Part shown: in pieces, positions 22,219 to 55,001 of the stretch
How positions within the stretch are numbered: position 1 is the stretch's first letter
Layout: each line of letters opens with the position of its first letter
Origin: Geobacter sp.
Lineage (GTDB): Bacteria > Desulfobacterota > Desulfuromonadia > Geobacterales > Geobacteraceae
Assembly (NCBI GenBank): GCA_027356255.1
Contig: DAIEGL010000284.1
Coordinates: 1 to 64,000, forward strand
Length of the DNA stretch: 64,000 nucleotides
Reading direction: 5' to 3'
Notes under the pieces: generated by a model
What the model was told of the DNA's origin: nothing
Seen by the model: the letters and a program-made list of their open reading frames with translations, nothing else
Databases searched by the model: none
Position numbers and translations under genes: made by a program

Positions 22219-22227
22219 AAATTCCTT

Positions 22228-33353: not shown

Positions 33354-33364
33354 GATCCTTCCTT

Positions 33365-34297: not shown

Positions 34298-34339
34298 GGT
34301 AAATCTCCTTTCATTGGGCGCGCAACGCACCCTGATTGA

Positions 34340-35838: not shown

Positions 35839-35982
35839 CTATTTCTCCTTTCACTTTTGCCACCACAACGGGCTTCCAAATGTCGTTTATGGCGGTTTAT
35901 AAACTGGCTTCCCGGCATTTTCGGGTGCGCCCACTTATCGGACTACCCCTGAAACGGCTACGGGGCAAATTTGGGCGTTTAA

Positions 35983-41211: not shown

Positions 41212-41546
41212 GTGGTTCTCTCCACTTTGGGATCTTTACGCATCAGCGGGCAGTAAAGGTTGTTGTCTACGCGATCTTTCACCTGGGTCATGGTCTGGGT
41301 AGAAAGGACCAGGATGTCCTGTAATCCCTTGGCGACGGTCTCATAGTTTTTGACCAGTTTGGCGTTTTCTTCGTACATATTCACCACTTCCGAGTGCCTT
41401 TTCTCTTGGCCTCTGGTGATGATGAACATGCCCACCCAGGGGCCTGCAATGACAAAGATGCTGATGGTGATCAGGGGCCAGGTGCCGATCTCTTTGATAA
41501 TTGCAACCAGGGCGGTAAGGGCAGCGACGTCGGTCGGGGTCATCAA
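41208..41546 (-). CDS. Small membrane protein of the lysis region
   Basis: 112 residues. One or two hydrophobic helices (VAALTALVAIIKEIGTWPL and ISIFVIAGPWVGMFIIT) precede a long helical soluble part (about 45-100). It may be a holin or spanin-type accessory, but it is not recognised as a defined family. Confidence 0.5.
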   Translation of the reverse strand: MMTPTDVAALTALVAIIKEIGTWPLITISIFVIAGPWVGMFIITRGQEKRHSEVVNMYEENAKLVKNYETVAKGLQDILVLSTQTMTQVKDRVDNNLYCPLMRKDPKVERTT

Positions 41547-42266
41547 TTACCTCCGCCACTGCAGATCGGTCTGAATCTTAGCAACGCCGTCAGTTGTGAC
41601 CTCGCTATAGCCGGTAAGGTGCAGCTGCTTTATGCGCAAGAACTCCCAGAAGCCGTAGAGTGTCCCGGAATAACGCGGACCTCCATCACCCATGGCGACG
41701 CCGTAACGGATGCCGGCACCCAGGTCGTTTCTGAATTGGAACCAGGGGGACTCCTTTTCCTTCACCACCGGCATGGTTATCCCTGTATCGGTATTGACCA
41801 CGGAAACAACGTAATAGCCGTTATCGCTGTCGGGCAGATCGGCGGTGGATGTCACCTGCAGATCGGATCCTCTGCCGGGCACCGGAGATTGAGTACCCTC
41901 CGCAGAGGGGGTTATCACCTCCCTGGAGGAATTGTCCTCATCGTTTTTAGCCGACGCGATATCCCCGCCTTGCAGCCATGGCATATCCAGCTTCTCCGCC
42001 ACCGCCTTTTTGTCCAGGGCAACAAAGCCCTGCTCGGGGCAGGCCACGCGGACACGCTCGATCTTTATCGCTTCCTTGATCTGCGGGACCCTCACGAACT
42101 GGGTCGCAGTGACGGTCCTGACCTGGGGCATTGCGTATTGCCAGAGGGCGGCGAAAACCGCCAGGATCAGGAGGATTAAGAGGCCGGTGCGCGACCAGTC
42201 GATCTTTTTCCAGTCAGATGTGAAATGACCTTTGATGGCTACCCAGCACATCTTTACCCAGCTCAT
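41547..42266 (-). CDS. Membrane-anchored phage protein of the lysis region
   Basis: 239 residues. One transmembrane helix near residues 28-46 (TGLLILLILAVFAALWQYA) is followed by a large, presumably periplasmic domain with a coil-like stretch (VPQIKEAIKIERVRV) and a beta-rich end. The single N-in anchor and periplasmic body fit an inner-membrane spanin-like role, but no partner lipoprotein was found. It overlaps the preceding holin-like gene by four bases. Confidence 0.5.
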   Translation of the reverse strand: MSWVKMCWVAIKGHFTSDWKKIDWSRTGLLILLILAVFAALWQYAMPQVRTVTATQFVRVPQIKEAIKIERVRVACPEQGFVALDKKAVAEKLDMPWLQGGDIASAKNDEDNSSREVITPSAEGTQSPVPGRGSDLQVTSTADLPDSDNGYYVVSVVNTDTGITMPVVKEKESPWFQFRNDLGAGIRYGVAMGDGGPRYSGTLYGFWEFLRIKQLHLTGYSEVTTDGVAKIQTDLQWRR

Positions 42267-42586
42267 AGCGGCTCCTGTATCCCAAAACCGGGACCCTTGG
42301 CAGCAACAACATCGTCAGTAACGGCCTGTGGCGCAGCGGCAGAGGTATCAATGGCAACAGCGGGCGCGGCAGATAATAGCTCGGTCTTCTTCGCACTACC
42401 CTCGCTGGAGCCGAAGTAATAGCCGTAGACATCCTTGACCAGGGTAACCAGGGCACCAAGTAGGATGAGCAGGATCTTCTCAACGGTCGGCTGCACCCCA
42501 GGGGAGAAGATCAGGATAAACACCACTGCGAAGAAGCCGAAGATGGCCAGCAGGCCCAGTACAGATTTAAAATCAAAGCGTTTCAT
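42263..42586 (-). CDS. Probable holin
   Basis: 107 residues. Two hydrophobic helices (VLGLLAIFGFFAVVFILIF and EKILLILLGALVTLVKDVYGYYFG) with a short loop between them and a hydrophilic Ala-rich tail form a class II holin layout. The second helix with VTLVKDVYGYYFGSS resembles phage holin families. It sits directly behind the endolysin candidate. Confidence 0.6.
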   Translation of the reverse strand: MKRFDFKSVLGLLAIFGFFAVVFILIFSPGVQPTVEKILLILLGALVTLVKDVYGYYFGSSEGSAKKTELLSAAPAVAIDTSAAAPQAVTDDVVAAKGPGFGIQEPL

Positions 42587-42616
42587 GTTGCCCCCTTATG
42601 ATCAGATTGGTCCGCG

Positions 42617-43189
42617 TTATCCCCGCATGACCTTGACAATGTTGTTGTAGCGGCGTTTGACGTCGTCGGGCCGTTTCTGCCCCCAGGGGAGGCTGAGCTT
42701 GAAGTCGCGGATGATCTCCGCTGTGACGACCTGTTTCAGTGCCGCGAGATGCTTGTGCAGTTTGCCGCCACGGCTCATGTACATCTGGTTGTGATAGTCG
42801 GCCATGGAGATCAGTCCCGCGTCGCTAAACCGGATGCCGCTGTCGCTGCAAATGGCTGAAGGCTGGGTGAGACATTCCTGCAGCTGCTTTTTGTCCCAGG
42901 CGTCGATGATCTCGGCGGCGGCTTTCAGCTTGGCGTTCATCGGCGCCATGTCGCGGACCGTCTGAGCCTTGAGGGCGGCAATCTGGTCCGTGGTAAAGGC
43001 GCAATCCCGCAGACCGAGGATGGCGCTGGGGTTGTTGTTGATGTCGAGCTGGGAGATACCATAGCTCCAGCCGGACTTCCCTGTTAGAACGCCGTCTGGG
43101 TCGGAGAAGCGATATGCGGCATTCGGGTTGTTTTCGAGCTCGTTGGCCAGGATGACCAGGCGGAAACTGTCGATAAGGCTGCGCGGCAT
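42617..43189 (-). CDS. Putative endolysin (lysozyme-like)
   Basis: 190 residues. Pattern E...P.AAYRFSDPDGVLTGKSGWSYGISQLDINNN resembles the catalytic part of lysozyme/transglycosylase-like phage proteins (an early Glu in ANELENNP, then GxSYGxxQxD). It is the first gene of the late operon and is followed by a holin-like gene, which supports a role in degrading peptidoglycan. There is no signal peptide, so it would depend on the holin. ATG 43189 follows CGGAGGTATT. A long inverted repeat lies 25 bases upstream. Confidence 0.6.
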   Translation of the reverse strand: MPRSLIDSFRLVILANELENNPNAAYRFSDPDGVLTGKSGWSYGISQLDINNNPSAILGLRDCAFTTDQIAALKAQTVRDMAPMNAKLKAAAEIIDAWDKKQLQECLTQPSAICSDSGIRFSDAGLISMADYHNQMYMSRGGKLHKHLAALKQVVTAEIIRDFKLSLPWGQKRPDDVKRRYNNIVKVMRG

Positions 43190-43213
43190 AATACCTCCGT
43201 TGGTTTTAGGTTG

Positions 43214-43244
43214 ACCGCTCCAGGTAGACGAGTCCTGGAGCGGT
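43214..43244. promoter_or_regulatory. Perfect 11-base inverted repeat upstream of the lysis/late operon
   Basis: ACCGCTCCAGG and CCTGGAGCGGT are separated by nine bases, ending 25 bases before the first late gene. No T-run follows on the minus strand, so it is not a normal terminator. It could be an operator for a late activator (the HTH protein at 43406-43741 is a candidate) or an mRNA hairpin affecting translation of the endolysin gene. Confidence 0.5.
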
Positions 43245-43281
43245 TCGTCAAAGGGAAAGAACAAACACGGGGGCAGGATAC

Positions 43282-43310
43282 AAAAAAACGCGCCGGGGGG
43301 CGCGTCGTTT
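43282..43310 (-). terminator. Terminator at the end of the early operon
   Basis: On the minus strand the stem ACGCGCC / GGCGCGT with a four-C loop is followed by a run of T. It lies about 96 bases behind the stop of the last early gene (43406) and before the late operon. Confidence 0.8.
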
Positions 43311-43405
43311 TGTCTCGGATTGTCATGGGTTATCAGGGGGTTAGGTGATTTTTTGGGGAAAAGAAAAGGGGAATTCTGCCTCTATATCCGATTCGGTTCA
43401 ATCTG

Positions 43406-43741
43406 TCAATCGGGATATGCGCAGGTACTGTCGAAGAGCGCCAGCTGATCGGGATCTACAGCCATCTGGCGCTGGTAGGAGTTGTTCCTGACCAGGAAGT
43501 CCACCAAATCAGGGAAAGCTACACGACGATTGGAATGGAGCATCGTGGAATTGAGGCTGCATGCGACGCGGGGCCGGCCGTTTTCGTCAGGCTCCCAGGC
43601 GTCGGTATAGCGCCGGAAAGTCCTCTCAACGATACCCAGAATACGGCAGACCTCGCTTGTGCAATAGCTTGCCTTCACTGGCAGATCGGCGGCCCGTAGC
43701 ATCCCTTTCAGCTTTTCCTCGGCAAGCTCCTGTTGCGTCAT
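43406..43741 (-). CDS. Helix-turn-helix protein at the end of the early operon
   Basis: 111 residues. SEVCRILGIVERTFRRYTDAW is a MerR/excisionase-like helix-turn-helix, followed by a beta wing (RVACSLNSTMLHSNRRVAF) and FPDLVDFLV. Its place at the end of the early operon corresponds to where Mu encodes Mor and C, the middle and late activators, but it does not resemble Mor/C in sequence. A role in late gene activation is an inference. It overlaps the GemA stop (TAATG). Confidence 0.6.
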   Translation of the reverse strand: MTQQELAEEKLKGMLRAADLPVKASYCTSEVCRILGIVERTFRRYTDAWEPDENGRPRVACSLNSTMLHSNRRVAFPDLVDFLVRNNSYQRQMAVDPDQLALFDSTCAYPD

Positions 43742-44325
43742 TATCTGTACTCCGCAGGCTTGTGCAGCTTGATATACTCGGTGATGCCCTTATGGGCGAA
43801 CTTCATTACCCACCAGTTTGGGCCGTGCTGGGCCTTCATCTGGTTTTCAAACATTTTCTTCAGCCCTTCAATGGCTAGGTAACAGTCCTGAGCCGTCCGG
43901 ATCTTGCCTTGCTTGATGCCCATGCGCTTCATCAAGAACAACCCCAGGCCGTTTTCTTCTCGCCACTGAATGAGAGCAGCGACAGCGTTCATCTTGTCGA
44001 TTTCATCTTGCCTGGGCAGGGCAATGACGTTACCCTGGCCGCGTGTGCTGCCGGCAGGCCGTGGGGCCGGTTTTACCTTCGTCTGCTTTGCCTTGGCGTT
44101 TGGCTTGAGGGTAAAGCCCTTGCCCTCCAGTTCGCGGATGAACTCCGATGCCTGATCGTAGGTGAGCTTTGTGCAGCTGCGCACCCCGTAGCGCTCCTCA
44201 AGCATGTCGTGTTCTTCTTCGCGGGGAATGCCCAGGAAGTTACAGGCCATCTTGATGATGGTGATCTGCTTACCGTTGATGGGTACCCCCGGCTTCTTGT
44301 ATTTGCGGTAGGTGTTGGTTTTCAT
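43741..44325 (-). CDS. GemA-like regulatory protein (Mu gp16, DUF1018)
   Basis: 194 residues. ITIIKMACNFLGIPREEEHDMLEERYGVRSCTKLTYDQASEFIREL is the DUF1018/GemA core. In Mu, GemA changes host gene expression and DNA supercoiling. A basic linker (KAKQTKVKPAPR) leads to a helical C-terminal half. GGGAGTTATAA precedes the start. Confidence 0.88.
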   Translation of the reverse strand: MKTNTYRKYKKPGVPINGKQITIIKMACNFLGIPREEEHDMLEERYGVRSCTKLTYDQASEFIRELEGKGFTLKPNAKAKQTKVKPAPRPAGSTRGQGNVIALPRQDEIDKMNAVAALIQWREENGLGLFLMKRMGIKQGKIRTAQDCYLAIEGLKKMFENQMKAQHGPNWWVMKFAHKGITEYIKLHKPAEYR

Positions 44326-44373
44326 TTATAACTCCCGCAGCAGCGGACTCCACAAGCTCCGCTGTGCTTGTTG

Positions 44374-44637
44374 TTATGCCTCGGAATCTTCCTCTAACTG
44401 CTTCAGTTCTCTCTTGAGCCTGTTGATTAATCTCTCCAGCGTCGTCTGTTGTGCTGCCGGACGTCTGCATGAGCCATACTCCTTAAAAAAGCATTCTTCT
44501 TTACCATCAATCGGCATCTCCGAGCACATTGCAAACTGGCAGACCATCACACCAACACAGTCAAACCCGATTTGGAATTCGCCATCGTAGAGAGAAATAC
44601 TGACATTTGCCGTTTTAGTGGCTTTCTTCGCAGCCAT
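44374..44637 (-). CDS. Small cysteine-containing early phage protein
   Basis: 87 residues: a basic start (MAAKKATKTANVS), a beta-rich core with CVGVMVCQFAMCSEM..ECFFKEYGSC (five Cys within about 35 residues) and a coiled-coil end (LERLINRLKRELKQLEED). A metal site is possible. No family recognised. It overlaps the upstream cysteine-rich gene by 23 bases. Confidence 0.5.
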   Translation of the reverse strand: MAAKKATKTANVSISLYDGEFQIGFDCVGVMVCQFAMCSEMPIDGKEECFFKEYGSCRRPAAQQTTLERLINRLKRELKQLEEDSEA

Positions 44638-44947
44638 TGCACGCCTCCACTGTTTTATGGCACTTGCATGTGCAGGCAATCTGGCCAGGCAGGTTCTGAT
44701 GCTTTGCACAGCGCCAGGGGTCCGAGAACTTGCAGTCACAATCCTGGTCTGCGGGGGCAGTCGAGAAGACCAGGACCTTGCACCCTCTGTCATTTTCGAA
44801 CTCTGTGGTGCCGTTCGGGTTAGTCTGCCTCTGAAAAGCCATCAGCCAGGTTGCAAGGATCTCCATCGTCCTTTGATCGCCAATTTTGCGGAACCCTCGC
44901 AAAACTGCCGCGCTTATTGCCTCTTCTTCCGGATTTTTCTTGCTCAT
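44615..44947 (-). CDS. Early phage protein with cysteine-rich C-terminus
   Basis: 110 residues. The helical N-terminal half is followed by a Cys/His-rich end: DCDCKFSDPWRCAKHQ and CTCKCHKTVEACNGC, nine Cys in total, suggesting two zinc or Fe-S knuckles. No family recognised. ATG 44947 is preceded by GAGGGGGGC; another small frame upstream overlaps it but has no support. Confidence 0.5.
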   Translation of the reverse strand: MSKKNPEEEAISAAVLRGFRKIGDQRTMEILATWLMAFQRQTNPNGTTEFENDRGCKVLVFSTAPADQDCDCKFSDPWRCAKHQNLPGQIACTCKCHKTVEACNGCEESH

Positions 44948-45013
44948 GAAGCCCCCCCTCATTTCCTGGCAATGGCAGCCTGCATTGCCACCAGCCGCTC
45001 TCATCCACCTTGT

Positions 45014-45211
45014 CTAGTAGTCTCTCCATAGCTGCCTCATCGCCTGTCGGAAATCCTGCATTTCCAGCGCTAGCTCCACCTGCTCCGGTTCGTCGACGCG
45101 CCCTTCGATGATCTTCTTTGCCTGGCGCTCGGCCTCGGCCCTGGATAACCCGCCGCAGTACTCCATGATCGCCGCCCGCTCTTCAAAGCGCAGCCGTTCA
45201 TCGACATCCAT
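45014..45211 (-). CDS. Small conserved-type phage protein
   Basis: 65 residues. RFEERAAIMEYCGGLSRAEAERQAKKI is a pattern common to short proteins in phages and plasmids of unknown function. Fully helical. It starts within the last codons of the upstream gene. Confidence 0.55.
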   Translation of the reverse strand: MDVDERLRFEERAAIMEYCGGLSRAEAERQAKKIIEGRVDEPEQVELALEMQDFRQAMRQLWRDY

Positions 45212-45392
45212 TGGTCCGCTTTACCGTGGTAACGGCGGGAGCTTCTCTCAGGGCCAAGGCGAACATTGTCGCGGCATGGAGAAACTCTTGCCTGGTTCCG
45301 CCCTTGCAGACGGCTTGCAGGCGCTCCAGTTCGTCGTCACTCACTCTCAAACAAATAACGTTGTTTCTCGGGTTTTGCTTAGCCTTGCCCAT
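45198..45392 (-). CDS. Small ribbon-helix-helix-like protein
   Basis: 64 residues. NNVICLRVSDDELERLQAVCKGGTRQEFLHAATMFALAL has the strand-helix-helix pattern of RHH/MetJ-Arc or mobilisation-type DNA-binding proteins. It is probably an early-region regulator. AGAGGTAG lies before the ATG. Confidence 0.5.
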   Translation of the reverse strand: MGKAKQNPRNNVICLRVSDDELERLQAVCKGGTRQEFLHAATMFALALREAPAVTTVKRTNGCR

Positions 45393-45394
45393 GA

Positions 45395-45541
45395 CTACCT
45401 CTTGCCGATCCGCAACGGACGGTTCTGCTGTTCTTTCCTGACTCGCTCCAGGATCTCCGCGCTCTTGATCTTCAGTGCCCGGTTTTCCTCAAGCATTGCA
45501 TCGACGCGCTTGATATAGCCGTATTCCGCCAGTTTGTTCAC
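45395..45541 (-). CDS. Small coiled-coil early phage protein
   Basis: 48 residues from a GTG at 45541 that has a perfect GGAGG five bases upstream. ATG codons further upstream in the same frame lack any ribosome site, so the ribosome site decides the start. The product is helical (RVDAMLEENRALKIKSAEILERVRKE). Function unknown. Confidence 0.45.
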   Translation of the reverse strand: MNKLAEYGYIKRVDAMLEENRALKIKSAEILERVRKEQQNRPLRIGKR

Positions 45542-45634
45542 ATGTACCTCCGTTGGCTGCATCATCAGGCCCCGGCAGCCACGCCGGGACGACAGCCAAC
45601 TTGCGAAATTGCGCAAGTTGACTGTTTCGCATGG

Positions 45635-46045
45635 TTAAAAAGATCTACCTATCATCTGTCTGCCCTTGTTCCATACGCTCAATGGTAAGTTGTAGCGCTT
45701 CAGATCCTTTTTTTTGACCGTTCGAGCCAATCTCCTGCAATCCATTTCCCTGCACATTTGAGGCTTGCTAGTATGGATAGAACACCCTCCATCCGACAGA
45801 TAAACACAGTCGCCGTTTTCCTTATGAGCCAGCATCAATTCATCCTTGAAATGGTCATGCGGAACTGTTTTGTATTGTGTCACGTCATCCTCTGGGAGTA
45901 GCCTTATTGCATCCCCATGACAACAGAGAGTGCATCCATTACAACGTACAGTGCCAGTTGGCAGTTCTGATTTGCTCTGGGACTTAATATTTTCAAGCTC
46001 TTGCATAGCCTTTTCAAAATTATTGATTCTGTGATTACACTCCAT
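45635..46045 (-). CDS. YkgJ-family cysteine cluster protein
   Basis: 136 residues. CNGCTLCCHGDAIRL, then GDCVYLSDGGCSIHTSKPQMCREMDC give the CxxxCC...C..L...GCxIHxxxPxxCR pattern of the YkgJ/UPF0153 zinc- or iron-chelating family. Host versions are common in deltaproteobacteria; one in the early region of a phage is less usual. GGAGGAGG precedes ATG 46045; the in-frame TTG upstream overlaps this site. Confidence 0.75.
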   Translation of the reverse strand: MECNHRINNFEKAMQELENIKSQSKSELPTGTVRCNGCTLCCHGDAIRLLPEDDVTQYKTVPHDHFKDELMLAHKENGDCVYLSDGGCSIHTSKPQMCREMDCRRLARTVKKKDLKRYNLPLSVWNKGRQMIGRSF

Positions 46046-46098
46046 ATTTTCCTCCTCCAATTTCTAAGCACGGCTTGATGCGGGCCACGCCGCAGCCG

Positions 46099-46362
46099 TT
46101 ATGCCCATACCCGAGCGAAATTCACGCCCTTGATGTAAGTTTTTGCATTTTTGTCATACACGGTGTTTTCTGGGGCCAGTGCTATGTACTCCTGAATATC
46201 CCGCGACGCTTGCGGAGAAGAAACCCCGAAGTAATCCATAATTGCACTACGGTTCAGGGTGCCGTACTCATTCAACAGAAAATCTATTAGCCGTAACCTC
46301 TGTTCAACCGCATATGTGAGTTTCTGGATATCCGTCTCTACCTGCTTTGTACAGTCACACAT
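46099..46362 (-). CDS. Small winged-helix-like early regulator
   Basis: 87 residues. LIDFLLNEYGTLNRSAIMDYFGVSSPQASRDIQEYIAL reads as a DeoR-like helix-turn-helix with a recognition helix SSPQASRDIQEY. The end is beta-rich. Probably DNA-binding. AGGGGGTGG precedes ATG 46362. Confidence 0.55.
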   Translation of the reverse strand: MCDCTKQVETDIQKLTYAVEQRLRLIDFLLNEYGTLNRSAIMDYFGVSSPQASRDIQEYIALAPENTVYDKNAKTYIKGVNFARVWA

Positions 46363-46372
46363 TAGCCACCCC

Positions 46373-47176
46373 CTAAAACGCTGCGATGTCGAGCGGGATG
46401 GCAATGTATCTACCCACTTCGTTGCGCTCATAAAGCCTGATCTGCTTCTTCTTGCCGGCTACCATAAGGGCATCACTGACGATCTCCATGCCGGCTTTCC
46501 ACTTATCATTTTCGATCTTAAGATGCCGGAGCGGCAGGATCTTGGAGACGCTTACCTGACCGTCTGTCTGCTTGAATGACGCATTGACGATGGTGCGTGC
46601 GTTTGCCGCCTCTTCGGGGAGCATCTCGTCAAGAGCTTCCAACAGTTTGGCTTGGGCCGCTTGCCACTCAGGACCAAAAGTCAGCTGCTTTTGGATGGCG
46701 ATGTTCAGCTTGTAACGCCCGTCGAAGGTCCTGAAGGTCATATTCCCTTCCGTACCGCCCCGCTTGACTTCATGCTTCTCGAACATTGCCGTAACGACCG
46801 TGGTTACGTCGCGGAAGTTATAGCCCTTGAAGCGCTCAATCTTGCCGGAGAGGTACAGCCAGTACACGGCGATCTCCAGGACCATGTCATGAAAGAGCAG
46901 GTCCATTTCCTTAATGTTCTGGATCAGGACCAGGTCACCGTTGGCGTTCTCCATCCGGCCATTGATCACTTGGGGATGCTCGGCCTCATAGGTAAGGCGG
47001 AGGGCGTTCTTCAGGACGTAACCTGCGCCGGTATCGGTGCCTCGCTCGCGGACTTCACCCCAGGTGACGGTCTCTATTGGATTAACGCGCAGTGACTCTG
47101 TCGCAGTGTCTCTTGCTTCTTTGTCTGTCGCGTGGTACTGCATGCCTGTGTTTGGTGAGTAGCTGTAAAAATCCAT
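46373..47176 (-). CDS. DUF3164 family protein with N-terminal extension
   Basis: 267 residues. Residues from about 72 (NGRMENANGDLVLIQNIKEMDLLFHDMVLEIA) match DUF3164, found in nearly all Mu-like phages and of unknown function. The first about 70 (YSYSPNTGMQYHATDKEARDTATESLRV) are not part of the usual family and look like a separate small domain. AAAAGGAGAAT before the ATG confirms the long start. It lies in the replication half of the early operon. Confidence 0.8.
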   Translation of the reverse strand: MDFYSYSPNTGMQYHATDKEARDTATESLRVNPIETVTWGEVRERGTDTGAGYVLKNALRLTYEAEHPQVINGRMENANGDLVLIQNIKEMDLLFHDMVLEIAVYWLYLSGKIERFKGYNFRDVTTVVTAMFEKHEVKRGGTEGNMTFRTFDGRYKLNIAIQKQLTFGPEWQAAQAKLLEALDEMLPEEAANARTIVNASFKQTDGQVSVSKILPLRHLKIENDKWKAGMEIVSDALMVAGKKKQIRLYERNEVGRYIAIPLDIAAF

Positions 47177-47178
47177 CC

Positions 47179-47421
47179 TTAATTCTCCTTTTGTTTTCTG
47201 ATTGCGTTTGCCAGATTACCGGCGTTGTCGTAGAAGCTGGTGATGCCGCAGAGGAGCTCCCAATCATTATTGACGAGCGGCTCATCGTCGAAGTTGCCGC
47301 TCACGCAGTCCCACACCTTGCCGTTGTGCATGTACTGCTCTTTTACGACCTCGCCGTTTTCGGCATAGGCGGTGATCTCGAACCCCTCGCGGGTTATGAT
47401 TACGGTTGCACAGTCGATCAT
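47179..47421 (-). CDS. Small hypothetical early phage protein
   Basis: 80 residues. Beta-rich start (CATVIITREGFEITAYAENGEVVKEQYMHNGKVW) and helical end. The open frame extends upstream of ATG 47421, but this ATG overlaps the stop of the preceding small gene by four bases, typical of coupled phage genes. No family recognised. Confidence 0.5.
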   Translation of the reverse strand: MIDCATVIITREGFEITAYAENGEVVKEQYMHNGKVWDCVSGNFDDEPLVNNDWELLCGITSFYDNAGNLANAIRKQKEN

Positions 47422-47570
47422 GCCCGCCACCAGGATGAAAAACGGGGGGGCTGCATGGCACCGCTGCATACAAGTTTGACGGCCAAGGCAGTAGCCCTGT
47501 AATCGCTGCGCTTCCGTGTCTGTTCCCACTTGTTGCGGTTGCTAAGCCACTTGATAATTAGTTTAATCAT
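47418..47570 (-). CDS. Small hypothetical basic protein
   Basis: 50 residues, Trp- and Arg-rich (MIKLIIKWLSNRNKWEQTRKR...), ending in WWRA. AAAAAGGAGAATCACC before the ATG is an excellent ribosome site. Coupled by ATGA overlap to the next gene. No family recognised. Confidence 0.45.
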   Translation of the reverse strand: MIKLIIKWLSNRNKWEQTRKRSDYRATALAVKLVCSGAMQPPRFSSWWRA

Positions 47571-47673
47571 GGTGATTCTCCTTTTTACGCTGCTCCCCAC
47601 CCAGGGTGATGAGGAGCAGAATCTCGAATATCAAGGCCAGGATAAGGAACCCGACCCAGGGACTAAGACTCAA
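47563..47673 (-). CDS. 36-residue transmembrane microprotein
   Basis: A TTG start overlaps the stop of the HTH/zinc-finger gene (TTGA), with GGGAGG a few bases upstream. The peptide holds one clear helix (VGFLILALIFEILLLITLG) and a charged tail ending KKENHHD. It ends inside the start of the next small gene. Both overlaps and the ribosome site support expression; function unknown. Confidence 0.45.
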   Translation of the reverse strand: MSLSPWVGFLILALIFEILLLITLGGEQRKKENHHD

Positions 47674-48080
47674 AACACCTCCCGGAAAATTGCCGCACCT
47701 TTCCGCTGCAGGTGCCCTTCATACCGGCGTAGGCAGTTATGGCAGTGCTGGTAATCATGACCTACGGCACCGTATTCGCCGCAGGCCCATTTGGGGCCAA
47801 AGCCGGGGGTCTCGCCGTTGCCGTTCATCTGGGGCAGGCCGCTGTCATCGACCTGCTGGAACAGATCGCCGGAAGTAAGCCCGGTAAGCTTCAGCCACTC
47901 TTCAATAACCGGGGTGGCATTGATGAAGGCAATGACATCGGCGATGAACTTCTCGGCATTGGCCGGCAGCTTGCCGCTGGAGAGGGAAATAGAGACCTGG
48001 GCCTTGCTCCAGCCGGAGGCCTGGACCAGGGCCTGCTGGGGGATCTTCAGTTCGTCGAGGACGGCTTTCAGCCTAAGCAT
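47670..48080 (-). CDS. HTH protein with C-terminal zinc-finger-like motif
   Basis: 136 residues. N-terminal XRE-like helix-turn-helix (LVQASGWSKAQVSISLSSGKLP) and a C-terminal CGEYGAVGHDYQHCHNCLRRYEG cluster that could bind zinc (C-x8-H-x3-C-x-H-x-C). Its start overlaps the end of the MuB gene by eight bases. Probably an early regulator linked to transposition. Confidence 0.6.
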   Translation of the reverse strand: MLRLKAVLDELKIPQQALVQASGWSKAQVSISLSSGKLPANAEKFIADVIAFINATPVIEEWLKLTGLTSGDLFQQVDDSGLPQMNGNGETPGFGPKWACGEYGAVGHDYQHCHNCLRRYEGHLQRKGAAIFREVF

Positions 48081-48987
48081 TAATCGCCCCCTTAACCTCG
48101 GGCAGGTCTCCCTGACGGCGCGCCAGGACGCCAGCCAAGGCAGCTTTACCGCTCACGGGCGCGGCCAGTTGTTTGCGGGGGGTGCGCGGCTGCAGCGCTT
48201 CAGCGGTCTGCTCCCCGGCAGCCGCCGTCACGTCCGCGACCTTAACCAACTCACGGCCGTCCGCCAGGGCGTGATTCAGGATCGTGACGCACAGCGCCTG
48301 AAGCTCCAGGTAATTGCGGGCCTGGGGCAGATCGGCAAGGGCGTCGATGGCCGTATCTTCGAAATGCTTGCCGATGGTGGCGCGGACATATTCGGCGGAT
48401 TCATCAGCCGACAGCCCTTTCATCCTGATGCAATCGGAGCGGAGCGCAACTTCGCTAACACCGGCTCGATTCATCGGGTCGGACTGGGCAACGAGGATGA
48501 TGGTGAACAACTCCTTTTGTCCCAGCCACTCGATTTCACGTAAAGTTTTCAGGCTCCTGAGAGTATTGGGATGCAGGCGCTGCGCTTCTTCGATCATGAC
48601 TACAACCTGTTGTTTTGGGTCACTGGTCGCCTCGCCCACAATCCTCCGTAGTTGCGCACTGCTCACCACCCCGCCGCGTTTGACTGATTCGGTGGAGAGG
48701 GCACTGATCATGGCGGCTTTGATTTCAGGCGCCCGCAGGTTTTCCTGGTCTTCCCGTATTACCGGTATCAGCCGGACTTTGAACTTTTTAAGAGCGGCTT
48801 CAATGGCATCGCTCTTGCCTATGCCGCGCTCCCCCACGATGCTGACCATCGCGTGCGATTCAATAGCCATCGTCAGAATCCGCCGGACCCTGGATATGTC
48901 CCCGGTTTCAAACTTTTTCGCGGCCTTGAACGGGTCGCATTTGTAGTCGAGGTTGCAAAATGTCTCCAGTCGTGTCATTGTCTCCAT
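48073..48987 (-). CDS. MuB-like AAA ATPase, target-DNA activator
   Basis: 304 residues. Walker A GERGIGKS (about 52-59), Walker B VVMIEEAQ (about 129-136), and an ExeA/MuB-type C-terminal domain. MuB polymerises on target DNA, recruits MuA and gives target immunity. It follows the transposase gene as in Mu, with one small gene between. AAAGGAGG precedes the ATG. Confidence 0.92.
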   Translation of the reverse strand: METMTRLETFCNLDYKCDPFKAAKKFETGDISRVRRILTMAIESHAMVSIVGERGIGKSDAIEAALKKFKVRLIPVIREDQENLRAPEIKAAMISALSTESVKRGGVVSSAQLRRIVGEATSDPKQQVVVMIEEAQRLHPNTLRSLKTLREIEWLGQKELFTIILVAQSDPMNRAGVSEVALRSDCIRMKGLSADESAEYVRATIGKHFEDTAIDALADLPQARNYLELQALCVTILNHALADGRELVKVADVTAAAGEQTAEALQPRTPRKQLAAPVSGKAALAGVLARRQGDLPEVKGAINA

Positions 48988-49032
48988 ATGTTTTCCTCCT
49001 TTTCTATTGGGGCGGGTGGCAGCCCGCCCTGA

Positions 49033-49260
49033 TTAAATAACTCTCGGCAGCTTCAACGTCCCTTCACCATCACCTGCTTTAATCTCCTTCAGTTTCGCTT
49101 GGGCTTCCGGCTTGGTGTCATAGATCAGCGGCTTCCCTTCCTCGCTGCAATGGTGCCATTGTCCGTTGACCAGACCCTGGATGCCGAACTGCGCTTTCAT
49201 TGTTTCCGTGTTCAGCCACCGTGACAGCCTGAATTTTGTGGCTTTTGCAAACGTTGCCAT
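49033..49260 (-). CDS. Small hypothetical protein between MuA and MuB
   Basis: 75 residues: FRLSRWLNTETMKAQFGIQGLVNGQWHHCSEEGKPLIYDTKPEAQAKLKEI. The pattern is of a small alpha/beta fold; no family recognised. AAAGGAGGATGC precedes ATG 49260. Confidence 0.5.
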   Translation of the reverse strand: MATFAKATKFRLSRWLNTETMKAQFGIQGLVNGQWHHCSEEGKPLIYDTKPEAQAKLKEIKAGDGEGTLKLPRVI

Positions 49261-49271
49261 GCATCCTCCTT

Positions 49272-50891
49272 TCATAGTGCAGCCCTCATCTGTTCCGTCT
49301 GTACCTCTGCCGCCAGCCCGGCCACAAAGCGCCGGGACAGGCCATTTTCCTCGATCAGCGCCGCGACTGTCTCACGCATTGTGTTGTCAAACTCATCCGG
49401 GCGAACCAAGCCGGTCAGTTGCTGGAATTCCCATATCGCACTCTTGATGTCAGGATAACGATCGACGTCGAGCGGGTTCTCGACCGCCCTGACATTTGTC
49501 CTAGTCTGCATCCTGATAACCTTCTTCGGCTCGCCTGGGCTGATTGTGGGCGCTTCATCCACATAGAGCAGGGGCCGGGCATGCTTCATCTCCGCTGCTT
49601 CTTCCCGCACACGCTGGTGCTCGGTTTTGGCGTTGCCGCGGAATTCGTCCAGGTTGTTCGGGCGGAAGTCGATCACCTCGTATTTGTTGCCGTCACTCAG
49701 GTCCATCGCCACCATTTTGCCGTCTATGGCCCCTATGTAGATTTTGACCTTAGCCAAGTGCAACCCCTTGACTTCATAAGTAACACCGTCGATGGTGAAG
49801 CAACCGCACTGATCGAGGGTCCTGTCATAGCCGCGCACCACGGTTTTGATGGCGTCGGGCGGGAAGAGGACGGCGCCTCCGTGCAGATTGATCCGCTCCC
49901 ACATCTGCAGGCGGGTGTGCTTTTTCTCGAAGCGGTGCTTGCGGGTGGTATTCCATTTGCGGATGAAGATCCCCATCTGGCGGTTGAACTCGGACATGGT
50001 GATGCTGAAGTGCTGCCAATCGCCGGTGAAATAATTCGCGACGAGGCGGGACCAGATCACGTCCCACACCTTTTCGATCTTACCGTGTTCATCCTTGTTG
50101 CCGGGCATGGTCTTTTCCACGGTAATGCCGGTGCGGGAGAGGAATTCCTTAATGGCTTTGTGCCGGATCATCGGTCCCTTATCCCCCATTAACCGTTCAG
50201 GGATGCCGAACCATGGCATACCCGATTCCTGGGACCAGGCCCAGCAGAGGAAATCTATGTTGTCAATGGCGCTCTCGCCGCAGGCCGCTACCATCCGCGC
50301 GGTCCAGCAGCCGGAATAGTCATCTGTGTAGCCGTAATACCAGGGTCGCAGGCCATCCACGGGCACGGGTTTGTTTTTGTAATCCTTATGTCCCTTGTGC
50401 AGTTTCAGAAGGTAATCGCCGTCCGGCAGGCGCTCGGCGATGTAGAAGCCGTCGCACCCGGAGGCGTCGATATGATGGAGCTGGTTGGGGCGCAAGGCCT
50501 GAAAGCGTTCCTTGCGGGCCTTCTTTTGGGTCAGGCCCAGCTTGCGCATCCACCGGTCGAAGGTGCCTGGGGGGATATCTTTGAAGCGGGGTTCCAGGTC
50601 GCCGTTCAAGACCGCCAGATCTCGGGCGTCCTCTGTCACCTTCTGGCGGCGATGGTCCGGGGCCATGTATTTGTAACGGGCCACAACGCGGGCCGCAGCC
50701 TCAATCCCCTCTATCTGCGCTTCCCCCTTGCGCTTACGGCCGATGCCGAGTGCGGCATAGAGTGTCTGGTAGGAGATGCCGAGAATCTTGGCATGATGGC
50801 GGATGATGGCTGTTTTACCGCGCTCTGCCGTTTCCCATTCGTTATGCACCTGCTGGATGTACCAGGGTGCGATGTCACGCGCTCTGGCCAT
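49272..50891 (-). CDS. MuA-type DDE transposase
   Basis: 539 residues. N-terminal DNA-binding part, then the rve/integrase catalytic core with Asp142 (HHIDASG), Asp237 (MGDKG) and Glu273 (HGKIEKVW), followed by a beta-barrel-like domain and a C-terminal tail for MuB contact. It is shorter than Mu MuA (663 residues), lacking much of the N-terminal enhancer/end-binding region, as in BcepMu-like elements. It cuts and joins the phage ends with MuB. It is placed after the DUF3102-like gene. Confidence 0.93.
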   Translation of the reverse strand: MARARDIAPWYIQQVHNEWETAERGKTAIIRHHAKILGISYQTLYAALGIGRKRKGEAQIEGIEAAARVVARYKYMAPDHRRQKVTEDARDLAVLNGDLEPRFKDIPPGTFDRWMRKLGLTQKKARKERFQALRPNQLHHIDASGCDGFYIAERLPDGDYLLKLHKGHKDYKNKPVPVDGLRPWYYGYTDDYSGCWTARMVAACGESAIDNIDFLCWAWSQESGMPWFGIPERLMGDKGPMIRHKAIKEFLSRTGITVEKTMPGNKDEHGKIEKVWDVIWSRLVANYFTGDWQHFSITMSEFNRQMGIFIRKWNTTRKHRFEKKHTRLQMWERINLHGGAVLFPPDAIKTVVRGYDRTLDQCGCFTIDGVTYEVKGLHLAKVKIYIGAIDGKMVAMDLSDGNKYEVIDFRPNNLDEFRGNAKTEHQRVREEAAEMKHARPLLYVDEAPTISPGEPKKVIRMQTRTNVRAVENPLDVDRYPDIKSAIWEFQQLTGLVRPDEFDNTMRETVAALIEENGLSRRFVAGLAAEVQTEQMRAAL

Positions 50892-50893
50892 GG

Positions 50894-51982
50894 TTATTCT
50901 CCCGAGGTGTAGGCTGATTCGAACTGTTTACGTAAGTCAAAGAGCTCCGCTTCCGCTTGATTCATGTAGCGGAGCACCTGGGCCTGCGCCGCCCGGTCCC
51001 CCTCCAGCCGCGGGTCAACTATAAATTTAGCGATGGAGGCGGAGAACGTTTTGCAATCCTCGTGGATTACTTGCATCTGCTCCTCGCACCAGGTCTCGTC
51101 ATGCTCCCCAGGGTCGAATGCTTTGAGTCGGTCAAGTTCCTTCTCATACAGCTTTTTTTCATTACGCCAGGACTTATTCTCTTCCTTCACGACCGCATCT
51201 AGGTTCTTTTCCAACTTCTCAACGCGAGCAGCGATGGTTTTATGCTTCTCCAGTAGAGCAGATACCGCCGCTTCCACTTCCGGTGCATGGTCCGCATCGA
51301 TCGGGATGGTCTCACCTTCAATAGTTATGGTCCCCTCATCAAGTTGGACAGCGCCATCATTGGTGAGTTGGCGAAGCTTTTTCAGTTCCCGGTAGCCAAG
51401 AGAAAAACTGCCAACCGTTTGCAGAAATGCTTCACCAAAAGTAGCGAGGTTAGCGAGATCTTCATCAACCTTTTGGCGGGAAAAGCCTAGATAATCACAG
51501 AACTTATCCCATGTACCTATGTTGGGTAAGTCTTTGTAGGTTTTTGACTCTTTAATCTGTTTCAGCTGCATCAAACTGCCAACCGTTGTCACTTTTTCAA
51601 CAAAACTGAGTGCCTGAATTCTGCCTGCAACTTCATAGGCGTCGGCAATGCGCTTCTCCCGGTCCGCCTGCTCGGCCTGCTGCGCTTCCAGTGCATGCTG
51701 TTCTTCAAGGAGCTCGCCGGTCGCCAGGGCCAGGTTTTGATTTGCCCTGATCAACACATCTTTTGTGGCCGTCTCGGAATCGCTGATTATGGCTTCAAGC
51801 CTGGACTCAAGCAGTTTGAGCAGTGTCTTATTCCCCCCGGCAGGGCGGCTTTTTACGTCTGTTATCGCCGCGCGGACGGTGGCTTCGTTGGCCTCTTTGA
51901 GGTGGCCCTTGAAGTTCTGGTCTCCCGGTGGACAGTTGGTAAGCCAGCCAAACGTCTCAGTATTTATTCCCTCTTTTGGCAT
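50894..51982 (-). CDS. DUF3102-like coiled-coil protein upstream of the transposase
   Basis: 362 residues. Central IKESKTYKDLPNIGTWDKFCDYLGFSRQKVDEDLANL matches the DUF3102-type phage motif (K..Y..L...TW..FC...G.SR...). About 230-300 is coiled coil. Such genes often sit directly in front of MuA in Mu-like phages of deltaproteobacteria. Function unknown; a DNA-binding accessory to transposition is plausible. GGAGGTATGAA precedes the ATG. Confidence 0.6.
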   Translation of the reverse strand: MPKEGINTETFGWLTNCPPGDQNFKGHLKEANEATVRAAITDVKSRPAGGNKTLLKLLESRLEAIISDSETATKDVLIRANQNLALATGELLEEQHALEAQQAEQADREKRIADAYEVAGRIQALSFVEKVTTVGSLMQLKQIKESKTYKDLPNIGTWDKFCDYLGFSRQKVDEDLANLATFGEAFLQTVGSFSLGYRELKKLRQLTNDGAVQLDEGTITIEGETIPIDADHAPEVEAAVSALLEKHKTIAARVEKLEKNLDAVVKEENKSWRNEKKLYEKELDRLKAFDPGEHDETWCEEQMQVIHEDCKTFSASIAKFIVDPRLEGDRAAQAQVLRYMNQAEAELFDLRKQFESAYTSGE

Positions 51983-51983
51983 T

Positions 51984-52277
51984 TCATACCTCCAATGTAT
52001 TTAGTTCGTCCTGCATCGTGCTTATCTTGGTTTGCAGCCCCAGCTTGAAGGCCGAGTACATGCCGGCCAGCCTCACACCGGGCTCGTACAGGTCGCCACT
52101 CTGGCGCACCCACTTGCGCTCCAGGGCTACTATCAAATGGCTCATGACGGTGCCGTGGGGAATATTCAAGGCACGGCTGATCTCGGCGCCGGACACCGGC
52201 CTGGTCTGCTGGTGTAAAAACTCGACAATATCGATGAATTTGTAGTCGGATTGGACCGGGGTGTATGATTTGGCCAT
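51984..52277 (-). CDS. IclR-type winged helix protein
   Basis: 97 residues. FIDIVEFLHQQTRPVSGAEISRALNIPHGTVMSHLIVALERKWVRQSGDLYEPG is the IclR-like N-terminal winged helix alone, without the effector domain. Early regulator. GAGGAGAAG precedes ATG 52277. Confidence 0.7.
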   Translation of the reverse strand: MAKSYTPVQSDYKFIDIVEFLHQQTRPVSGAEISRALNIPHGTVMSHLIVALERKWVRQSGDLYEPGVRLAGMYSAFKLGLQTKISTMQDELNTLEV

Positions 52278-52278
52278 G

Positions 52279-52464
52279 TCACTTCTCCTCAAGACTGTGT
52301 GCCGTCCAGGACCCGCGAGGGCCGGGCTGTATTCGGAATAACGCTACTGCTTTTGTACCACCGGGCAGGGTGCCGCGGACCCGCAAGCTACCGTTAGTCA
52401 TAGCTTCATCGTGGATCGCCCAGAAGTCGCAGAGGCGAAACGGAACAACCGGAAATCCCATCAT
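52279..52464 (-). CDS. Small hypothetical early protein
   Basis: 61 residues from an ATG overlapping the preceding stop by four bases (ATGA), with GGAGGGG just upstream. The peptide (MMGFPVVPFRLCDFWAIHDE..) is followed by a beta-rich end. No family recognised. The longer frame upstream is a shadow of the preceding gene. Confidence 0.5.
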   Translation of the reverse strand: MMGFPVVPFRLCDFWAIHDEAMTNGSLRVRGTLPGGTKAVALFRIQPGPRGSWTAHSLEEK

Positions 52465-52934
52465 TTTTTCCCCTCCATTTCCTGTAGGAATAGTTCCCGC
52501 TTTTTCCGTTCTCTTGCCGCTTTCTGCTCCTCTTCGCGCAGCTTCTGAATTTCCGATCGCAGTGCCTCGGCGCCGGGGAGGCAGAACATGCCGGCGGACT
52601 CGTTGACGATCTCCAGCGGCTGGCGCCAGTTGGTGACCCGGCAGAAGGCGGCAAGCCTGCTGCCCCAGATCTGGTGGCGGGTTTTGCTCTCTGCCGTCCA
52701 GGAGTAAATCATCTCGGCAGTGATGGTTTCGTCCAAGAGGTGGCTCATTTCCCCGGCGATCTGGTAGGCATCGAGGGGACACTGTTTGATGCCCTCGGAA
52801 AGTGACCGGCGCAGGGATGCCTCAATATTCATACTCCCCCGTGTGGATGGCGTCAGCTGCATCTCCTTGGTGCGCTGAAGAAGGTCAAGGAGGGATAGCT
52901 GGTTGGTGTCTGTTTTTTCGCGTCTTTTAGACAT
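52461..52934 (-). CDS. Early phage regulator-like protein
   Basis: 157 residues. Basic N-terminus, a helical middle resembling a helix-turn-helix (AYQIAGEMSHLLDETITAEMIYSWTAES, followed by SRLAAFCRVTN) and a coiled-coil basic C-terminus (EIQKLREEEQKAARERKKRE). Proteins of this layout are common behind ner in Mu-like phages of this group. Function unknown; DNA binding is likely. Confidence 0.55.
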   Translation of the reverse strand: MSKRREKTDTNQLSLLDLLQRTKEMQLTPSTRGSMNIEASLRRSLSEGIKQCPLDAYQIAGEMSHLLDETITAEMIYSWTAESKTRHQIWGSRLAAFCRVTNWRQPLEIVNESAGMFCLPGAEALRSEIQKLREEEQKAARERKKRELFLQEMEGKK

Positions 52935-52958
52935 TGTTAACAGTCCCCGTTTCTGCTA

Positions 52959-53252
52959 TCATCTGGCCGTTGTTCTGGTCTTTTTAACCCTGGTGGTACG
53001 TTCCACAAGTGGATGTCCATTGCAGTCGTAACGGCTCGGCCAGATCAAAGCGGGTTTAACACCAATTATCTTGCCGACGATCCTCTCAATTGCCGGCCAT
53101 GGCTTGTGCAGCACCATATTGGGCGATCTCTCTACATAACCGTATTTGCGGGCAATACTGGCAAAGCTGTGGCCTTTCTTTTCAAGTGCGGCTTTGATAT
53201 CGGCGCGGTGCCAGTCCGATAAAGATGTTTTTTTATAGGCGGTAGTACTCAT
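52959..53252 (-). CDS. ner: Ner-family DNA-binding protein
   Basis: 97 residues from ATG 53252 (the open frame upstream runs into the control region). DWHRADIKAALEKKGHSFASIARKYGYVERSPNMVLHKPWPAIERIVGKIIGVKPALIWPSRY is the Ner/Nlp family. In Mu, Ner represses the early promoter after infection and the repressor gene. It is divergent from the repressor across 75 bases. Confidence 0.88.
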   Translation of the reverse strand: MSTTAYKKTSLSDWHRADIKAALEKKGHSFASIARKYGYVERSPNMVLHKPWPAIERIVGKIIGVKPALIWPSRYDCNGHPLVERTTRVKKTRTTAR

Positions 53253-53330
53253 CAATGTCTCCGCTGTTTTTTTGGACTGTCTGAATATGAGATGTAAAAC
53301 TGACAATGCAAAAATAACCGATTGGTTATG
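53253..53330. promoter_or_regulatory. Divergent control region between ner and repressor, with operator palindrome
   Basis: ATAACC-GATT-GGTTAT (about 53315-53330) is a perfect 6+6 palindrome next to the repressor start; further GGTTAT half-sites follow at about 53356, 53512 and 53542. On the minus strand TTGCAT and TATTCA about 18 bases apart form a candidate early promoter reading into ner. It is probably the repressor/Ner switch. Confidence 0.55.
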
Positions 53331-54044
53331 GTAATGCAAGAGAAAAATATACAAATGGTTATAGAAAATATCGGTAATAGAATACGAACGGTCAGAGAGA
53401 GTCAGAAACTCAGCCAGGAAGCCTTCGCTGGGCGCATGAATGTGACGCCTGCCACCATCAATCGGTATGAAAAAGGGCATCGTGTACCTGATGCTGACTT
53501 TCTAAACCGACTGGTTATACAGTTTAGTTGTGATGCCAAATGGTTATTAACTGGGGTGGAGTCAGATACGCTGCCGGTTGCCGGTGATCATTCCGCGAAC
53601 TATGCTGCAAAGGATGATGTAGAAAAGGATTATGTGCTTGTGCCCCGTTATGACGTTAGGGCTAGTGCTGGTGGGGGTGCCCTGGTTCATAGTGAGCAGA
53701 TAGTGGATTACCTTGCCTTCAGAAATGAATGGGTCACCCATTCCCTGGGAGTGCCAAAGGAGTATCTTGCTCTTATTTCAGTCCAGGGTGATAGCATGGA
53801 GCCGACCTTGAGCAACAACGATCTGATCCTGATCGACCGGAGAGAGACGTCGGTAAACGACAATTCTATATATGTGCTCTCCTTTGATGGATCTTTGCTG
53901 GTCAAGCGTATTCAGCGGAAATTAGACGGGTCTCTTGTCGTGAAGAGCGACAATCAAATATACGAGCCGGAAATGGTAACGTCTGACAAGGCCGGTACAT
54001 TAATTATTGTCGGGCGTGTCGTTTGGTGCGGACGGAGGATGTGA
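53328..54044 (+). CDS. LexA/CI-type phage repressor with S24 peptidase domain
   Basis: About 238 residues. XRE helix-turn-helix (SQEAFAGRMNVTPATINRYEKG), linker with an Ala-Gly pair (RASAGGG, likely self-cleavage site), and an S24 domain with the Ser of GDSMEP and the Lys of LLVKRI forming the Ser-Lys dyad. This lambda-CI-like design suggests SOS-dependent induction, unlike the Mu c repressor. The start is uncertain: ATG 53328, 53334 or 53355; the first overlaps the operator palindrome and none has a good ribosome site. It shares one base with the next gene. Confidence 0.85.
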   Translation: MVMQEKNIQMVIENIGNRIRTVRESQKLSQEAFAGRMNVTPATINRYEKGHRVPDADFLNRLVIQFSCDAKWLLTGVESDTLPVAGDHSANYAAKDDVEKDYVLVPRYDVRASAGGGALVHSEQIVDYLAFRNEWVTHSLGVPKEYLALISVQGDSMEPTLSNNDLILIDRRETSVNDNSIYVLSFDGSLLVKRIQRKLDGSLVVKSDNQIYEPEMVTSDKAGTLIIVGRVVWCGRRM

Positions 54045-54472
54045 TGAAGAATTTTCTTTTTATGGCCTTGTTGTTAGTTTCTTCTATGGTTTATGCAGAT
54101 GAAACGCTTGTCCCAAACAAAATTTTAGATGTGGGAAATGATGTGAAAACGGTCAGTATCATGGTCGGCACCGATGAGGATCATTTGGTTAACCTAGTGG
54201 TACCTCGATCAATGGTAAAGGAAGGTGCGGAAGCGGCCAATGTTGATGCTATTTGCTATAACGGTAGGGGGAATATGTTTCTCAATTCCCCTAAATATAA
54301 GGCTGCAGCCAGGCTAAAATTCAATAAATTGGATCGAAAAAAGAAATTTGCCGAGATAGAAGTTGAAGCGCGTCTGGTGAACGTAGAACAACGGAAGTTT
54401 ATTTCTATTCCAACTACCAGGTTGAAAATTACAGGCAAACAGTTTGCTAATTTGGTTGCAAAAAAGAGATGA
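54044..54472 (+). CDS. Exported protein co-transcribed with the repressor
   Basis: 142 residues, with signal peptide MKNFLFMALLLVSSMVYA. The mature part is beta-rich and basic (KAAARLKFNKLDRKKKFAEIEVEARLVNVEQRKF). No family recognised. GGAGG lies before the ATG, which overlaps the repressor stop (TGATG). The sequence is clearly AT-richer than the late genes. Being in the lysogenic operon, it should be made in lysogens. Confidence 0.6.
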   Translation: MKNFLFMALLLVSSMVYADETLVPNKILDVGNDVKTVSIMVGTDEDHLVNLVVPRSMVKEGAEAANVDAICYNGRGNMFLNSPKYKAAARLKFNKLDRKKKFAEIEVEARLVNVEQRKFISIPTTRLKITGKQFANLVAKKR

Positions 54473-54831
54473 TAAAATGGATTACAATCTTTGTATTACT
54501 GCCTTCGTTGGCTTTTGCCGGTCATATCCATAAGGAAAAGGAATACCAAGAAGCTTGGTGTAAAAAGATAAACGGTATCACGGAATATCGGCTGGAGGAT
54601 GGAGCGAGGGTCGACTGTCTCACGGATCAGTTTGCTATCGAGTTTGATTTTGCGCCAAAATGGGCCGAGAGTATTGGGCAGGCTTTGTATTATGCGGAAA
54701 TGACCGGACGAAAGCCGGGCGTTGTGCTGATCCAAGAGAATGACGATGATGATCGTTACATGGATCGTCTGAAAAAGGTCGCGGGTCGACATGGAATTAA
54801 AGTTTGGGAAATGACTCCTGACGAACTATAA
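54469..54831 (+). CDS. Exported nuclease-like protein in the lysogenic operon
   Basis: 120 residues, signal peptide MIKWITIFVLLPSLAFA. The mature part (EYRLEDGARVDCLTD..AIEFDFAPKWAESIGQALYYA, then RKPGVVLI) has the Asp...Glu-x-Asp...Lys spacing and following helix of PD-(D/E)XK nuclease-like folds (Asp49, Glu58, Lys64). Activity is inferred from pattern only. Coupled by a four-base overlap to the preceding exported gene. Confidence 0.6.
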   Translation: MIKWITIFVLLPSLAFAGHIHKEKEYQEAWCKKINGITEYRLEDGARVDCLTDQFAIEFDFAPKWAESIGQALYYAEMTGRKPGVVLIQENDDDDRYMDRLKKVAGRHGIKVWEMTPDEL

Positions 54832-54920
54832 AATTATCTCTCTTTCTTCCATCAAGACTTTCTTGATAAACTCCTTCTGTCAGTCTCATGTAAAGCATCT
54901 GTAAAGCATTGTGAAACTCA

Positions 54921-54962
54921 CTTATCGTGTTTCTGGTATGTTAGTTATCGTACCCCCCTTGT
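54921..54962. repeat. Prophage left-end transposase-binding sites
   Basis: CTTATCG (54921) and GTTATCG (54944) are inverted copies of the CGATAA core found at the other end. The terminal 19 bases read on the minus strand ACAAGGGGGGTACGATAAC, matching the right end at 14 of 19 positions. TGTAAAGCAT repeated at about 54890 and 54900 may be a further site. Confidence 0.65.
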
Positions 54963-55001
54963 CTGTTCATGTTTGCAAGGGATTATTGGGAAAAAGGGTG
55001 A
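54963..55001 (+). pseudogene. Separated 3' end of the MFS transporter gene
   Basis: CTG followed by codons for F-M-F-A-R-D-Y-W-E-K-G and TGA continues the MFS frame interrupted at 15220. The peptide suits the end of helix 12 with a short charged tail. It has no start of its own and is separated from the rest of the gene by about 39.7 kb. Confidence 0.8.

Follow-up and report, generated by a model that had tools for sequence, protein, structure and literature searches.

Several integrated phages and elements encode deoxyribonucleases (DNases) that reduce natural transformation, among them Campylobacter jejuni Dns (CJIE1), the CJIE2 and CJIE4 DNases, Bacillus subtilis YokF, and IdeA of an integrative and conjugative element (PMC4774983, PMC4372405). 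For DNases of this kind the published drop in transformation is 10- to 1000-fold (PMC4774983). SNIPE, a membrane-bound GIY-YIG nuclease, acts from the inner membrane and cuts phage DNA as it is injected (PMC13190303). Here we analyzed p3, a predicted protein that is likewise encoded by an integrated phage, in a stretch of 64,000 nucleotides from Geobacter sp. (contig DAIEGL010000284.1, positions 1 to 64,000; hereafter the window). The window holds a Mu-like prophage of about 39.7 kb, and at the left end of this prophage, on the plus strand, lie three overlapping genes (53,328–54,831), of which p3 is the last. The p3 protein appears to be a small exported nuclease-like protein of the PD-(D/E)XK type, which may act in lysogens on incoming DNA. 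The three genes are as follows.

53334..54044, plus strand: CI/S24-type phage repressor, first gene of the operon (HTH_3 E 1.4e-11, Peptidase_S24 E 1.9e-22; phrog_4 transcriptional repressor E 3e-50)
54044..54472, plus strand: p2, 142 residues, exported, predicted all-beta; signal peptide at about 54,044-54,097
54469..54831, plus strand: p3, 120 residues, exported PD-(D/E)XK-like protein; signal peptide at about 54,469-54,519

A repressor followed by two exported proteins, as claimed in the original prediction, was present in the sequence; the end of the repressor gene and the beginning of p2 overlap in TGATG, as do the end of p2 and the beginning of p3 in ATGA. From these gene overlaps we infer that p2 and p3 would be expressed in lysogens. 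The repressor has alternative in-frame starts at 53,328 (ATG) and 53,322 (TTG). By inspection, p2 and p3 carry Sec-type signal peptides, MKNFLFMALLLVSSMVYA followed by DETL and MIKWITIFVLLPSLAFA followed by GHIH, respectively.

Predicted fold, active-site-like residues and export of p3

The structure of p3 was predicted with a pLDDT (predicted local distance difference test) of 97.8. The mature model consists of a helix (residues 6-16), three strands (20-24, 30-34, and 38-44), a second helix (45-62), and a further strand (65-71). Candidates found by Foldseek were realigned with VIA-align, and the fold families named here come from this realignment. The best match was NucS (2vld; Z 9.7, root-mean-square deviation 2.2 Å, 89 residues aligned), followed by AF1548 (Z 8.8), the XisH proteins 2inb (Z 7.3) and 2okf (Z 7.1), and PaqCI (Z 7.2). 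Further matches were the CRISPR nuclease 6sce (Z 6.8), AF2093 (Z 6.6), and the CdiA-CT toxin 4zqu (Z 6.6). Partly on general knowledge, we take these structural matches to belong to the PD-(D/E)XK superfamily. Below them, YaeQ, ERCC1, and small GTPases were aligned at Z 5–5.6. Structure prediction had been suggested as a check on the nuclease-like character of p3, and the nearest solved structures to this confident model were indeed PD-(D/E)XK nucleases, with NucS at the top. Judged from the model, p3 very probably has a PD-(D/E)XK nuclease fold.

Residue conservation was counted over 159 distinct members of the p3 family, with a mean column identity of about 35%. Asp49, Glu58, and Gln71 were invariant (159/159 each), and Tyr75 (158/159) and Lys64 (156/159) were nearly so. 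Asp49, Glu58, and Lys64 thus stand where they had been reported and do not form a chance pattern. Position 60 was Asp or Glu in 158/159 members and Cys in one. The residues of interest are encoded at the following positions.

54613..54660, plus strand: active-site-like residues Asp49 (54,613), Glu58 (54,640), Asp60 (54,646), and Lys64 (54,658)
54679..54693, plus strand: Gln71-x3-Tyr75, RecB-like QxxxY motif
54535..54537, plus strand: codon of Glu23, the invariant acid of the first helix
54559..54618, plus strand: Cys31 (54,559-54,561) and Cys50 (54,616-54,618), a likely disulfide

The motif II Asp (D49) and the motif III acid (E58) are conserved on adjacent strands, 30-34 and 38-44 in the mature model. 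In NucS, the counterpart of Glu23 is approximately residue 127, provided that the structural alignment starts ungapped. Position 60, where the motif III lysine would normally stand, is thus acidic in all but one member of the family, and Lys64 lies four residues on, where the following helix begins. A migrated lysine is described in several PD-(D/E)XK families, and for DUF506 and DUF790 it is found with a (D/E)X(D/N/S/C/G) motif III (PMC1913061). The QxxxY motif (Q71, Y75) places p3 near the RecB-like nucleases. Because of the migrated-lysine precedent, the conserved residues, and the QxxxY motif, catalysis by p3 is likely, and we consider that p3 is probably an active nuclease.

A hydrophobic N-terminal stretch before the domain was found in 153 of the 157 members scored, ten members having a lipobox, and at least two of the four members without the stretch are visibly truncated. 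For comparison, 15% of the other genes of 80–200 residues in p3 loci have a hydrophobic N-terminus. Cys31 and Cys50 were both present in 152 members and replaced by Ala and Ile in five, with no mixed case, and the five losses map to two or more separate points of the tree. This joint retention or loss suggests a disulfide, and hence an oxidising compartment. On its sequence features p3 is almost certainly exported. The confidence expressed here in fold, export, and nuclease activity, and below in a barrier role, reflects judgement and not computed values.

The p3 family and its gene neighbourhoods

No match to p3 above the cut-off was found in Pfam, PHROGs, NCBIfam, or PADLOC, and a profile search of PDB sequences revealed no relative. 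A single-protein scan of viral contigs used patterns that were too specific to pick up any relatives of p3. A profile built from the first relatives found 179 stretches of IMG/VR viral contigs and 453 stretches in a set of one genome per GTDB species, and eight phage records also matched. Of 395 genomes chosen as a sample of the window's phylum, 17 have a family member, its own genome counted, and the named GTDB relatives include Geotalea and Geobacter. No match was found among the 72,556 plasmids of PLSDB.

The genes around p3 were then compared; repressor neighbours were scored with a locally built repressor profile, which is not exhaustive, the PHROG neighbour tallies being too sparse to be used alone. 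At 12 of 106 non-redundant loci, or of 104 by another count, a same-strand helix-turn-helix (HTH) repressor ended within 1 kb upstream of p3, as against about one per kb further out, and same-strand integrases lay within 1 kb downstream at five. In 7 of the 12 repressor-linked loci, the repressor and p3 were separated by one or two genes whose products have a hydrophobic N-terminus. The order repressor, exported or membrane gene, p3 was found in the window and also in G006 (L004/L097) and G052 (L005). The Mu-like phage contig L014 carries MuB, MuA, a Ner-like gene, a divergent repressor, an exported protein, and p3, and ends 281 bases on; in Dulem virus 31, a single small gene separates CI from p3 downstream of it. 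The original reading of the three genes as a lysogenic operon is supported by this recurrence in other phages.

Of 55 immediate same-strand upstream partners of p3, 28 had a hydrophobic N-terminus, in comparison with the 15% background (Fisher 5e-9), and the partner place in other phages is taken by various exported, lipoprotein, or membrane proteins. Since the partners vary between loci, p3 is the constant element. No relatives of p2 were found in phages, in IMG/VR (single-protein scan), or in 97 relatives, and p2 could not be assigned with Pfam, PHROGs, NCBIfam, or PADLOC, apart from a match to phrog_25845 at E 0.002. A single-sequence model of p2 had a pLDDT of 79; its best Foldseek matches, TylM1 methyltransferases (TMq 0.38), and its VIA alignment rows, which reach Z 5.2 (CrdA), were both too weak to name a fold. 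Export, predicted from the signal peptide, is all that could be established for p2.

Small exported GRTDxxGGHxxxxxGxYHxH proteins were seen near p3 at L033:4987-5220, L055:5705-5932, and L006:543-878, with a weak YHYH match in L055; they are possibly a metal-binding partner. The record of Dulem virus 31 (PP511318.1, L011) is filed as Microviridae, is 35,844 bases long, and has a CI repressor, a replisome organizer, and an exonuclease; this classification looks wrong.

In Trichlorobacter and relatives, p3 has a lipoprotein form (L007:1477-1848, L008:1495-1869, L136, L151, and L156), and the L007 and L008 copies are chromosomal and adjoin, as judged by eye, quinolinate phosphoribosyltransferase and ABC-transporter-like open reading frames. 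A domesticated, non-phage branch of the family seems to exist in these bacteria. In Gastranaerophilales a p3 homologue lies among chromosomal metabolic genes, and the gene directly upstream encodes an exported protein that contains the Cys/His-rich motif CCSHHGGVCGCS and has no Pfam match.

L098:7786-7971, L111:7807-7986, L117, L118, and L159: exported proteins of about 60 residues in Gastranaerophilales

Salicola phage SCTP-2 (440 kb) carries a divergent p3 homologue (L013:4872-5357), which adjoins ribonucleotide reductase genes and is encoded on the other strand from the genes around it.

The Mu-like prophage and the position of the operon

The limits of the prophage and its main regulatory and transposition genes are given below.

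15220..54965: Mu-like prophage (approximate limits), inserted into the final codons of a host gene (13,934-15,238); the flanking host genes are adjacent elsewhere
54832..54965: left prophage end, with two direct TGTAAAGCAT copies at 54,889 and 54,900; host homology resumes at about 54,966
52959..53255, minus strand: Ner-like winged HTH regulator, divergent from the repressor (HTH_35 E 1.8e-23; phrog_769)
49272..50891, minus strand: MuA-like transposase (phrog_310 transposase E 1.9e-30)
48073..48987, minus strand: MuB-like AAA ATPase (AAA_22 E 7e-10; phrog_296 DNA transposition protein E 3.7e-9)

The prophage has the characters of a Mu-like transposable phage, namely MuA- and MuB-type genes and a Ner-type regulator divergent from the repressor; further regulators run opposite to the repressor together with these three genes. 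The genome that contains the window (G000) is Geobacter-like, 3.4 Mb in 301 contigs. In relative G002, and by flank order in G004, both flanking host genes are neighbours and the prophage is absent. The original end of the interrupted host gene (13,934–15,238) was recovered at about 54,966–55,003 by reading the junction, and because the split gene was read at both junctions, the operon could be placed between the repressor and the left prophage end. At the termini only short ACAAG/CTTGT ends were readable, and at the insertion points (15220 and about 54966) only a possible 3-bp duplication, CTG; inspection of the termini revealed no clear 5-bp duplication. The two TGTAAAGCAT copies (54889-54909) are 11 bases apart near the left end, with no copy at the other end, and are possible transposase-binding sites.

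The GC content was 61-63% in the host, 55.5% in the prophage body, 47.5% in the repressor, 39.2% in p2, and 44.9% in p3. AT-richness had been taken as a sign of separate acquisition. The AT-rich stretch covers the repressor and the Ner-like gene too, so that only p2, and less clearly p3, stands out. For p3 this makes the argument a weak one.

Proposed role of p3 and comparison with known systems

As the most economical reading, we propose that p3 is a periplasmic or secreted DNase of lysogens that cuts incoming DNA and so forms a barrier, as the original prediction had suggested; we consider this barrier role about as likely as not. The repressor transcript would yield p3 in lysogens, and the protein would be exported by the Sec route and held by one disulfide. 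As a small PD-(D/E)XK nuclease-like enzyme, with Lys64 acting as the motif III lysine in metal-dependent catalysis, it would most likely act in the periplasm or immediately outside the cell, cutting DNA on entry, be it from superinfecting phages, transforming DNA, or other naked DNA. Prophage and host would then be shielded from competitors and from removal by recombination. No immunity partner would be needed, because the cell's own DNA never enters that compartment, and p2 would be an exported accessory. DNA uptake by the host is conceivable, since its genome has a Competence-domain (ComEC-type) gene. A wider idea, which we put forward tentatively and hold to be unlikely, is that temperate phages carry a widespread and as yet unnamed class of 'border' cassettes, in which a repressor transcript includes a periplasmic PD-(D/E)XK nuclease and exchangeable exported partners that steer the nuclease to entry routes such as phage injection sites or DNA-uptake pili, so that lysogeny itself would close the envelope to foreign DNA.

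Several observations weigh against the barrier proposal. Foldseek with the p3 model gave no match at E <0.01, and several of the Z values can be reached by a common alpha/beta arrangement. The motif III lysine is replaced by Asp or Glu, so the active site may be altered, or may bind metal without cutting, and we found no biochemical evidence for the family. Repressor adjacency was seen in a minority of p3 loci, and the chromosomal copies in Trichlorobacter and Gastranaerophilales and the copy in SCTP-2 mean that lysogeny is not the sole setting of p3; the stretch read in SCTP-2 held no lysogeny gene.

The chromosomal, non-prophage copies would fit a general extracellular DNase that breaks down DNA from the environment, as a source of nutrients or to control biofilms, and aids lysogen growth, exclusion of DNA being a side effect; extracellular DNases play such roles in other bacteria (PMC4372405). 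However, phage-borne p3 is enriched by repressors and integrases, where lysogen-acting genes are located, and the family was not found on the plasmids searched, so that this explanation seems unlikely. The replaced motif III lysine, together with the variation of exported or membrane partners within the same cassette, could instead point to superinfection exclusion without cleavage, in which a degenerate PD-(D/E)XK fold would bind an envelope protein or the entering phage tail or DNA, and p3 would resemble other exported prophage exclusion proteins. Invariant acids and Gln, with near-invariant Tyr and Lys, across the 159 members are nevertheless the mark of an active site, and we regard a non-cleaving p3 as quite unlikely.

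The PD-(D/E)XK fold handles many substrates, and with the copy in the jumbo phage SCTP-2 this would allow another envelope nucleic-acid enzyme, for example a ribonuclease or a nuclease for phage exit or entry. This is highly improbable in our view, as in the window and its Mu-like relatives p3 sits with the repressor and opposite the early lytic genes. The original prediction had also raised an effector against neighbouring bacteria. On this reading p2 could be an immunity protein or helper, and the CdiA-CT contact-dependent inhibition toxin is indeed among the structures aligned to p3. That suggestion found little support: p3 is without a delivery domain, p2 is itself exported and is not conserved alongside p3, at many loci p3 stands alone or beside other partners, and no dedicated immunity gene was seen. 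A toxin role is therefore extremely unlikely.

The p3 family and its repressor-linked cassette are new to the libraries searched, in which a family present in hundreds of phage and bacterial sequences has no name. The proposed role would be of a known kind because transformation is blocked by other prophage DNases, Campylobacter Dns and B. subtilis YokF. Should p3 prove to be an envelope nuclease, it would join the few mechanisms with which prophages close the host cell to competitor DNA, and would account for some of the exported 'moron' genes near phage repressors. As a small, confidently modelled protein with clear residues for mutation, p3 is testable.

The nearest structural relative, the C-terminal domain of NucS/EndoMS (2vld), has by reading the RecB-like QxxxY motif in common with p3. 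NucS motif III is of the ExK type, whereas p3 has EFD. NucS/EndoMS combines an N-terminal DNA-binding domain with its C-terminal nuclease domain, while p3 is a single domain of about 100 residues that matches no Pfam family, not even NucS_C. Scanning the window's own genome for NucS_C found nothing, and a NucS_C match in the related genome L181 was by inspection a different, UPF0102-like protein and not p3. The DUF506 and DUF790 families share with p3 a (D/E)X(D/...) motif III followed by a helix that contains a basic residue; they are not described as exported phage proteins in that source (PMC1913061).

In function, the closest parallels to the proposed role are the DNases of integrated phages and elements. 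The Campylobacter DNases are predicted to be extracellular, and p3 is likewise prophage-encoded with an export signal. Dns-, YokF-, and IdeA-type DNases belong to other nuclease families. Unlike them, p3 is a mature protein of about 100 residues with a PD-(D/E)XK-like predicted fold and a predicted nuclease activity, encoded in an overlapping repressor operon. With SNIPE, p3 would share the principle of an envelope-confined nuclease that cuts phage DNA on entry, but the nuclease domain of SNIPE has another fold and lies on the cytoplasmic side, whereas p3 is predicted to act outside the inner membrane.
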